Under the pieces are notes generated by a model. That model had not been told where the DNA came from and searched no databases. It was given only the letters and a program-made list of their open reading frames with translations. From Gemmataceae bacterium (GTDB lineage Bacteria; Planctomycetota; Planctomycetia; Gemmatales; Gemmataceae): 43,325 bases of DNA. The DNA is taken from assembly GCA_025055215.1 (NCBI GenBank), contig JANWYO010000263.1, forward strand, positions 1-43,325. Direction: 5' to 3'. The position numbers were made by a program, and so were the translations under genes. Shown here in pieces: positions 7,045 through 38,897 of the stretch; position 1 is the first letter of the stretch, and each line of letters starts with the position of its first letter.

Positions 7045-7194
7045 GGCTGTCAGCAAGTCCCCGCAGGAATGGGCAACCACGCGACTCATCCCGGGCCGGG
7101 CCCGAATGGGTCGCCGGCCCGATGCCACTGGCCGCAGGGTGCTGCCCTCTTAGATACCAAGTTCGCCGACGGGTTGCCATTGCGACCGGCAACG

Positions 7195-7352
7195 GGGTGA
7201 CTCGCTGGATCTTGGGGCGGCGAGGGTGCAGCGGCGGAGACGGATTGATCGCTTCGCGCTCACGCCAGGATGAGAGTTGCGATGAGCAGGCAGGGAAATT
7301 GATCGTTTGGCGCTTGCTTCGTGCCCCGTGAGCGCAAAACGAGGAATCCGCG
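7195..7352 (-). repeat. Dispersed intergenic repeat, copy B plus degenerate partner
   Basis: Reading the minus strand, 7272-7200 carries GAGCGCGAAGCGATCAATCC followed by CTCCGCCGCTGCACCC.CGCC and ATCCAGCGAG, matching copy A at about 59 of 72 positions. Immediately upstream on the same strand, 7352-7290 holds an imperfect inverted pair: CGTTTTGCGCTC and AGCGCCAAACGATCAAT. The element fills the space between the esterase and sigma-factor genes. It has no conserved reading frame. Confidence 0.7.
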
Positions 7353-7505
7353 GAGCGGGGAGTAGAGAAAAACGCCGCCTGGACTGCGCCCCCCTCAAAC
7401 GATAGGTGCACCGTGGCTGGGTCCGTGGCACGGAGGAAAGGACCTGACCCGACGAACCGAGGAGTGGGAAGACAATGAACTTGTGCAGATTTCAAACAAT
7501 AACTC

Positions 7506-7534
7506 TTGATACGAGAATGAATGATTTTTACAAT
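7506..7534 (+). promoter_or_regulatory. Sigma-70-type promoter
   Basis: TTGATA (7506-7511), a 17-base spacer and TACAAT (7529-7534) make a near-consensus housekeeping promoter in a locally A/T-rich patch, which stands out in this GC-rich DNA. Transcription would begin near 7541, giving about a 290-base leader before the sigma-factor ATG. That leader contains the small ORF at 7590-7691. Confidence 0.65.
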
Positions 7535-7589
7535 TGAGCGACCATGCAACGCTGGTCCGACGAGCGCTTCGGGAGGAAGCGGCCAGCCA

Positions 7590-7691
7590 ATGAATGGCAG
7601 CCAGTTCGCGCACAAGGAGGTGCCCATGGTCGGTGCCGGCATCACGCGGATTGCGGAGAAGCTGTTCGACGGTGCGATCGGTGGAGGTTAG
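7590..7691 (+). CDS. Small ORF upstream of sigma factor (33 or 21 residues)
   Basis: Two in-frame starts: ATG at 7590, with GGGAGGAAG upstream, and ATG at 7626, with a textbook AAGGAGG at 7614-7620 and a 5-base spacer. Both end at the TAG at 7689-7691. The peptide from 7626 has 21 residues: a likely amphipathic helix (GITRIAEKLFDGAI) then GGG. It follows the promoter at 7506-7534 and precedes the sigma factor by 141 bases. It could be a leader peptide that couples translation to sigma expression, or an independent small protein. It has no recognised family. Confidence 0.45.
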   Translation: MNGSQFAHKEVPMVGAGITRIAEKLFDGAIGGG

Positions 7692-7832
7692 ACAGGGGAG
7701 TGGTTGCCGACTTCCCCTCTGCCTTGCCGACAGTGACAGTCTGATGTCCGCCATGCGGTGACGCGACCGCAGACTTCGCCACTGCCATCGGGGCTTAAGA
7801 AACCATTGGGAAATCGTATGGGAAGGACGGCT

Positions 7833-8837
7833 ATGAAGCCACGACGTCGGAAGCGCCAGGCGGCGCGCGAGGATGTTGTTTCGGTTGTTCCCACCACCTT
7901 TTCGTCCGACCTGCTCACGCCGGAAGAAGAGCGGGAATTGCTGGCCGGCTTCTGGGAGGTCAAGAGCGAACTGGTCCGGCTGCTCATCCGTCATTTCCCG
8001 CGATTGCGGGCCCATCGGCCACCGATGGAGCCTTGGCCGATGGCCCAGTTCATCCGCGACCATTGCACAGCCGAAGCGCGGCAGGTGCCGGCCATTCGCC
8101 GTTGCCACGACCGCTATGTGCATTACAAGCATCGCTTGGCGTCGGCGAACATTCGTTTGGCGGCCCATGTGGCGAAGAGGTTTCGCCACCACGCGCTCGC
8201 CTACGCCGACCTCCTCCAAGAGGCGGTCTGTGGCCTGATGCAGGCCATCGACCGTTTCGACGTCAGCCACGGCACGCGCTTGGCCACCTACGCCACTTGG
8301 TGGATCCGGCAGACGCTGCAAATCGCCGTCGCCCGGCAAAGCCACTTGGTCAGCTTGTCGCCGCACCACCTTCAAGAGTTGGGGCTGCTCCAACAGGAGT
8401 CGGAAGCACTCGCTCACGGCGGCAAGCACCTCCCCAGTCCCCAGGAGTTAGCCTCCCGCACCGGAAGCAGCCTGGAGCACCTGACGCACCTTCAGACAGC
8501 AACCCGGGCGCCGGTGTCGCTGAATGCCGTCCTCGACGATGATAGCGATTTCAAACTCACCGAGGCCATGCCCGACAACGAAAGCCAGCAGCTGCGCATG
8601 AACTCGGAACGGCAGGAGGCGCTCAGCTTCCTCATGGAAAACCTGCGGCCACGGGAACGCCGGGTCTTGGACCTGCGCTTCGGTCTGACGGGCAACGGCA
8701 CCCACAGCCTGCGACAGATCGGCCACCTGCTCCGCATCAGCAAGGAACGAGTCCGCCAGATCCAGAATCGGGCCTTGGAGAAGCTGCGGGCTTCCGCCGA
8801 GCGTGTGGGTTGGGAGCCGAGCCTGCTGCTTGGTTGA
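7833..8837 (+). CDS. Sigma-70 family RNA polymerase sigma factor
   Basis: A 334-residue group 2/3-like sigma factor. Region 2 spans about residues 106-167 (NIRLAAHVAKRF, DLLQEAVCGLMQAIDRFD, then TYATWWIRQ of region 2.4), followed by region 3 with SLSPHHLQ and PSPQELA. Region 4 is at about 268-320 (LRPRERRVLDLRFGL and the DNA-reading helix ISKERVRQIQNRALEKLR). The N-terminus lacks the long region 1.1 of a primary sigma factor. The ATG at 7833 is chosen because GGAAGGA lies 7 bases upstream; an ATG at 7818 and a GTG at 7758 are in frame. No anti-sigma gene is adjacent. It probably directs an alternative regulon. Confidence 0.93.
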   Translation: MKPRRRKRQAAREDVVSVVPTTFSSDLLTPEEERELLAGFWEVKSELVRLLIRHFPRLRAHRPPMEPWPMAQFIRDHCTAEARQVPAIRRCHDRYVHYKHRLASANIRLAAHVAKRFRHHALAYADLLQEAVCGLMQAIDRFDVSHGTRLATYATWWIRQTLQIAVARQSHLVSLSPHHLQELGLLQQESEALAHGGKHLPSPQELASRTGSSLEHLTHLQTATRAPVSLNAVLDDDSDFKLTEAMPDNESQQLRMNSERQEALSFLMENLRPRERRVLDLRFGLTGNGTHSLRQIGHLLRISKERVRQIQNRALEKLRASAERVGWEPSLLLG

Positions 8838-8886
8838 GCGGCTTGACTCACGGTTTAGCCGCGGATTGACGACGATCCGAACGGTT

Positions 8887-8918
8887 AACGCCTCCCGGCC
8901 TGTCGGCCGGGAGGCGTT
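8887..8918. terminator. Bidirectional intrinsic terminator
   Basis: A perfect 14-bp stem (8887-8900 with 8905-8918) with loop TGTC. The flanks allow a short T run on each strand (GTTTT on plus, GTTAACC on minus). It lies between the convergent sigma-factor and uracil-DNA glycosylase genes. Confidence 0.85.
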
Positions 8919-38200: not shown

Positions 38201-38897
38201 ACGGATACCTCGTCCAGGTGGGGTGCCTAAGCACCCTGGGGACAGCGAGTTTGTGTCCTTCAATTCGTGGCTTGGCCGCACGCGGGGCCGTGCCTGGTAG
38301 GCCTCACGTGGAGTCTCAGGTCACTCTTGACGCTCCCCGGGTTGACGCTTGGCGCCCGCCGCCGTCGCCCGCTGCCTTCTTCCCGTGCTGTCAACTACTG
38401 AACGAGCGAGGCCGCTTGAGTTCCCGAGAGCGCCATTGCCGGGGTGGCACGAGGAGCGAACGCCACCCCGCTGGTCGAGACTGCCAGCACCGTCTTTGTC
38501 CACGAACTCGTGGCCCGCCCATTCAAGGACGAGTCCCGGGCGTTTCCCTTGAGGTTATCGGCACGATCGGCAAAGGCGCTACATTCCAAAGGGTCGCTAC
38601 CTACGGAAAAAACTGTGAAGTTGGTGGTGGATTTTTGCGCCCGGGAAGCAGCCAAAAGGGGACGGAGGTGGCGGCGGCCGGATCGGCCCCGCCACGGCAT
38701 GCTCAAGTGCCCTGACTTTTCTGCCGATTTCAACTAGCGTGGTCCGCGATTCTGGGCAAACACGGCAGCCCAACTAGGCTGAAAGCCCGAATCCGACCGG
38801 GAGCATTAGGCAAAATGATCGGACGCACACCAATTGCGGGTCTCGGCAAAGCGATCAGCGCCGGCCGGTCCCGAAAACCTATTGGGGAGCACCATTG
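38201..38897. other. Non-coding stretch with small dyads
   Basis: No convincing gene in about 700 bases: the open frames on both strands are short, overlap each other and lack family patterns. Seen are GGTGC-CTAA-GCACC near 38220, CGGGGTGGC...GCCACCCCG (38440-38448 with 38462-38470), and CCACGA-AC-TCGTGG near 38501. It might hold the promoters of the divergent outer-membrane factor and lipoprotein genes; no consensus promoter was identified. A decayed gene or small RNA cannot be excluded. Confidence 0.5.

Follow-up and report, generated by a model that had tools for sequence, protein, structure and literature searches.

We propose that the sigma-factor gene at 7833–8837 of the window (the whole 43,325-nucleotide stretch analysed here, which comes from a genome of Gemmataceae, Planctomycetota) is transcribed with a long leader, and that translation of the sigma factor is probably controlled there by a CsrA-type mechanism together with RNA structure, the small peptide encoded in the leader being incidental. 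All of the leader features described below lie on the plus strand.

The sigma-factor gene and its promoter

The gene codes for a 334 amino acid member of the sigma-70 family with regions 2, 3 and 4, as identified with Pfam and NCBIfam. The RpoD and RpoS models are among its best NCBIfam relatives, all of which score under the cut-off. Since the orthologs have GGAAGGACGGC-ATG-AAG in common, the ATG at 7833 is the start codon, and the protein begins MKPRRRKR. A single ortholog with 80–92% identity was found across the Gemmatales in 96 of 102 genomes (E ≤ 1e-120), and in the sigma tree, with a midpoint root, the window is the first Gemmataceae branch.

A promoter of the sigma-70 type, TTGATA-17-TACAAT, is located at 7506–7534 (-35 at 7506–7511, -10 at 7529–7534), where a preliminary description of this DNA had placed it, and is the sole match of this type within 7100–8900 (shuffle mean 0.2). 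Promoters scoring at least 11.5 and placed 190–460 nt 5' of the sigma start were discovered in 61 of 86 unique upstream regions; for the other regions a fixed 330-nt stretch was taken as the leader. Motifs were counted on 85 leaders, one of the 86 containing N, and TTGNNN-17-TACAAT occurs in 42 of these 85 regions upstream of sigma orthologs, compared with a mean of 0.08 and a maximum of 1 in 100 shuffles. Judged by its conservation this is a genuine, strong promoter of the sigma-70 type. Transcription would be expected to start near 7541, judging by the promoter position, and the leader between the promoter and the sigma gene is some 290–300 nt long. Since the promoter recurs before orthologous sigma genes, the long leader is a conserved feature. 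The preliminary description had combined a consensus promoter, a long sigma leader and regulation in that leader with a small peptide; the first three are retained here, and the peptide, which is unconserved and whose reading frame is at chance level, is not.

The window leader folds no more stably than its shuffles (z +0.5) and holds no terminator-like site. The identity of a tRNA or tmRNA was ruled out, none being found. Eight upstream regions of more distant sigma homologs were also inspected: a promoter-like match lies roughly between -225 and -277 in three of them, and none has a CANGGANG hairpin of at least 3 bp.

A CsrA-type hairpin in the leader

About 80 nt past the -10 box, nucleotides 7610–7623 can form the hairpin GCAC-AAGGAG-GUGC with its loop at 7614–7619. 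This fits an ANGGAN hexaloop with AC/GU flanks (GC-AC-AAGGAG-GU-GC). According to PMC7652899, the CsrA site obtained by SELEX is RUACARGGAUGU, which usually sits in a loop of six bases and in which AC pairs with GU; for RsmE the site is an ANGGAN hexaloop. The apparent Shine-Dalgarno sequence AAGGAGG is most likely better read as the loop of a CsrA/RsmA-type hairpin. Exactly two ANGGAN words are present in the window leader, namely the hairpin loop at 7614 and AAGGAC at 7823–7828, which lies within the Shine-Dalgarno sequence of the sigma gene; some 205 nt separate one GGA site from the other. ANGGA is found at -18 to -4 in 34 of 61 orthologs, a figure that has no baseline from other genes. 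The hairpin appears in the minimum free energy fold with a pairing probability of just 0.18 across the full-leader ensemble; loop bases 7614–7618 are mostly unpaired (0.75–0.99), and base 7619 has a value of 0.23.

The pattern GCACAAGGANGTGC occurs once in the 4.58 Mb of the window genome. Genome-wide it is not enriched, the backward-read pattern being equally common or commoner, and three of its 69 places fall in sigma leaders, which make up a tiny share of the sequence. A further CsrA-type hairpin word, ATTC-AAGGAC-GAGT, was noticed at 38521–38534 on the plus strand of the window.

The orthologous leaders were screened with WCANGGANGW, a form of the CsrA site. It was found in 16 of the 85 leaders (mean 1.5 and maximum 5 in 200 shuffles), CANGGANG in 33 (mean 7.1, maximum 15) and CAAGGASGTG in eight (0.065 in shuffles). 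An AAGGAN hexaloop closed by a stem of at least 4 bp is present in 8/85 leaders, compared with a mean of 0.6 and a maximum of 4 in 200 shuffles. Reversed patterns, complemented patterns and three of the four scrambled controls showed no enrichment in the leaders; the fourth of these, GANGGANC, showed a slight excess (19 against a mean of 10.5 and a maximum of 18). At 10 of 33 distinct sites the stem reaches at least 4 bp, while re-dealt flanks gave 2.7 and none of 5000 trials was as high. Eleven CARGGANG hairpins fall in 17,607 nt of leader and seven in the 684,048 nt of the remaining loci, where both strands were counted, a density about 60-fold higher in the leaders; for WCANGGANGW the density in leaders is 13-fold (Fisher P 8e-13).

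The stem GCAC/GUGC is common to the window, L044 and L048. Elsewhere the letters vary and the pairing is kept, as in L042 (UCGGUC/GACUGA), L013 (UCAAUUC/GAGUUGA), L072 (CAGCAC/GUGUUG) and L024 (GGCAACGC/GUGUUGUU). The leader of Zavarzinella formosa DSM 19928 (L043), a named type strain that is in culture, has the same kind of hairpin as the window with other stem letters (GACAC/GUGUU). Where the stem has at least 4 bp, the loop lies 64–118 nt past the -10 box, with the exception of L032 at 175. The predicted GGA hairpins in these leaders are maintained by compensating stem changes among orthologs. Alternatively, the CsrA-like sites could be Shine-Dalgarno decoys.

Several leaders have features of their own. 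In that of L013, a 66-codon frame opens with a TTG behind the GGA hairpin and closes on, or close to, the start of the sigma gene, apparently with a CTATGA overlap that possibly permits translational coupling. Gemmata-type leaders contain a terminator-like hairpin in mid-leader, GACTC...GAGTC followed by GGGGATTTTT (for example at 2866–2890 of L067), which is largely conserved in 10 aligned leaders of this type. The Gemmata-type clade may thus use attenuation or make a small RNA here; its leaders, with their terminator-like hairpin, seem to be built on a different design. The sigma leader of L035 contains a long imperfect inverted repeat with letters of the GAAGACGAATTACGAAAG type.

A structured element between the two GGA sites

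Nucleotides 7692–7803 match covariance model R1, which was built from eight relatives with the window left out. The putative element consists of a hairpin, P1 (7694–7718), followed by the single strand GCCTTG, a long hairpin, P2 (7733–7782), with GTG/CAC and AGTCTG/CAGACT pairing, and a closing GCC/GGC pair (7721–7723 with 7792–7794). Within the 43 kb of the window no other R1 match scores as well (22.9 bits, E 0.0029). Over 87 sources totalling 562 kb, the only better match outside the training sequences is L054, which is also directly 5' of a sigma gene. In a 10-row alignment of the element, 94.4% of the cells pair and six pairs are changed on both sides; in P2 the window has AGTCTG/CAGACT where its relatives have letters of the GGTTCG/TGGACT type. 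None of 500 shuffles reached the pairing or the covariation score, although the alignment was fitted to the structure and is hence biased towards it.

When 95 genomes were searched with the R2 model, matches were obtained in nine sigma leaders and at two places inside genes. The latter (L169 and L170, 29–35 bits) were rejected as extra copies of the element, since they lie inside open reading frames, and were taken as chance. Because chance matches of this kind arise, R2 scores of about 30 bits mean little genome-wide. The element is limited to one clade plus the window. Since the window branches outside that clade, the element is probably old and has elsewhere been lost or changed beyond recognition. 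We regard 7692–7803 as a candidate new sigma-leader RNA element of the Gemmataceae (R1/R2), matched with covariation.

Perhaps the leader is instead a structured regulatory RNA (a thermosensor, riboswitch-like or sRNA-responsive) comparable to the leaders of rpoS or rpoH, with 7692–7803 as its active part and the GGA hairpin secondary. The conservation of R1/R2 with covariation argues for this, as does the recovery of the window by a model from which it was absent; in addition, most other leaders retain the promoter and the length without a strict CsrA site, WCANGGANGW being missing from 69 of 85, most Gemmata-type ones included. A possible switch would have the pyrimidine strand of P1 pair with the Shine-Dalgarno sequence of the sigma gene. 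P1 pairs with its own Shine-Dalgarno sequence at a mean of -18.9 kcal/mol and with those of other species at -17.0 kcal/mol (permutation P 0.019), a difference that is only suggestive with 10 species and a segment holding both P1 strands. Against a structured RNA of this sort, Rfam found no family in the window at gathering level, the leader having a single sub-threshold match with E 4, the element is confined as described above, and the enrichment of GGA hairpins is left unexplained. We therefore consider this reading rather unlikely, and prefer CsrA-type control in which RNA structure takes part.

The small open reading frame

The preliminary description had drawn attention to a 21-residue open reading frame, MVGAGITRIAEKLFDGAIGGG, at 7626–7691, and this is present as reported: AAGGAGG at 7614–7620 precedes its ATG (7626) with good spacing, and an upstream in-frame ATG at 7590 would extend it to 33 residues. 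Conservation of the peptide before orthologous sigma genes had been named beforehand as a check, and no ortholog has the peptide. Among 111 loci the pattern of the peptide core was found in the window's own two, the few others being unrelated matches to a loose pattern, and in the window's own genome the peptide occurs once. Such a frame is also not beyond chance: when the window leader was put through 500 dinucleotide shuffles, 61 of the products contained one of at least 20 residues with a Shine-Dalgarno sequence and ATG; two of the 61 promoter-bearing leaders contain one. A stretch that aligns with the L042 leader (7667–7735; z 6.0 against 60 shuffles) covers the last codons of the frame, and here the indels of relatives break the reading frame. 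A conserved small peptide was rejected on its absence from orthologs and on the chance-level frequency of the frame.

It is improbable that CsrA controls translation of the 7626–7691 frame with the sigma gene coupled to it, the GGA hairpin serving as a repressible ribosome site. The ATG is well spaced after AAGGAGG, and PMC7652899 provides a precedent in E. coli iraD-idlP, where CsrA acts on a short upstream open reading frame. However, the frame stops 141 nt 5' of the sigma start, so that there is neither overlap nor coupling, and of 17 leaders with CARGGANG only that of the window has an ATG 4–9 nt 3' of the motif opening at least 20 codons, no peptide being common to them.

Leader-peptide attenuation, or an independent amphipathic-helix microprotein, is very improbable: the frame exists with a Shine-Dalgarno-like sequence and a plausible helix, but it is conserved in none of the 111 loci beyond the window's own two, is at chance level in a leader without a terminator-like site, and overlaps in its 3' part with RNA conservation having frame-breaking indels. 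These proposals of the preliminary description were abandoned on this evidence, together with the reading of AAGGAGG as a CsrA-type loop; for the same reasons the leader probably acts as RNA. The frame is most likely not a gene and would be a by-product of the AAGGAG loop plus a chance ATG, although it may still be translated in the window species. If so read, a CsrA hairpin may mimic an ideal Shine-Dalgarno sequence and create a phantom small open reading frame, and a likely mis-annotation is corrected here.

CsrA proteins and the proposed mechanism

CsrA (PF02599) was found in all 95 Gemmataceae genomes searched and in three of 14 control genomes. The window genome has four matches, the best of which is canonical (MLVLSRK...VPVHRQEV) and exceeds both csrA equivalog cut-offs; these two ends of the protein bind RNA. 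One match (L191, C228:4451–4600) is the N-terminal part of a 285 amino acid open frame. The later part of this frame resembles a response-regulator receiver, to which CsrA is apparently fused. CsrA has been described as widespread and conserved in the Planctomycetes (PMC10729762).

Under CsrA-type and RNA-structural control, the sigma-70-type promoter would give rise to a sigma mRNA whose leader, about 290 nt in length, works as RNA. The leader would present GCAC-AAGGAG-GUGC, to which one of the genome's four CsrA proteins would bind. A CsrA dimer held on the hairpin would also occupy the Shine-Dalgarno sequence of the sigma gene and so block ribosomes, as in glgC, and the sigma factor would be made once CsrA had been titrated away. 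The folded segment 7692–7803 between both sites probably draws them closer to each other or masks the ribosome site. Several of the observations above weigh against this mechanism: the low pairing probability of the hairpin in a leader that folds no better than its shuffles, the lack of the strict motif in 69 of 85 leaders and of the CANGGANG hairpin in the eight more distant homologs, the seemingly different design of Gemmata-type leaders, the slight excess of one scrambled control, the wide spacing of the GGA sites, and the presence of the R2 element in nine sigma leaders of 95 genomes.

More tentatively, this may be an ancestral CsrA-sigma circuit of the Gemmataceae, in which several CsrA paralogs set the level of a conserved sigma factor through a GGA hairpin, an RNA element and a GGA-bearing Shine-Dalgarno sequence; at present we would hold this as possible rather than probable. 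The accessible part of the literature on CsrA in Planctomycetes names no mRNA target in Planctomycetota, and such a circuit, if true, would be a concrete one. A candidate CsrA-type site before a near-invariant sigma factor offers a direct and testable way into the CsrA regulon of these bacteria.

Comparison with known systems

Stress-type sigma factors such as those encoded by rpoS and rpoH have long structured leaders through which translation is controlled. The window resembles them in having a long structured sigma leader, and differs in that there is no sequence relation and no Rfam match.

The remaining systems are compared as they are described in PMC7652899. In the E. coli glgC leader, CsrA anchored on a hairpin extends to the Shine-Dalgarno sequence (PMC7652899). 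As in the window, there is an upstream hairpin loop with GGA, a second site in the Shine-Dalgarno sequence and a CsrA encoded by the genome. Unlike in glgC, the window sites, at about 205 nt, are farther apart and enclose a structured element, a planctomycetotal sigma factor is the target, and binding is predicted. The mRNA of E. coli rpoE, coding for sigma E, is repressed by CsrA (PMC7652899) and shares with the window a sigma-factor target, leader control by CsrA (predicted in the window) and one site at the Shine-Dalgarno sequence; the window factor differs in having regions 2, 3 and 4 and in being RpoD/RpoS-like, belongs to another phylum, and has an upstream hairpin distant from the Shine-Dalgarno sequence. 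Finally, iraD-idlP also has CsrA-type sites beside a short leader open reading frame; that of the window, in contrast, is unconserved and falls short of the downstream gene.
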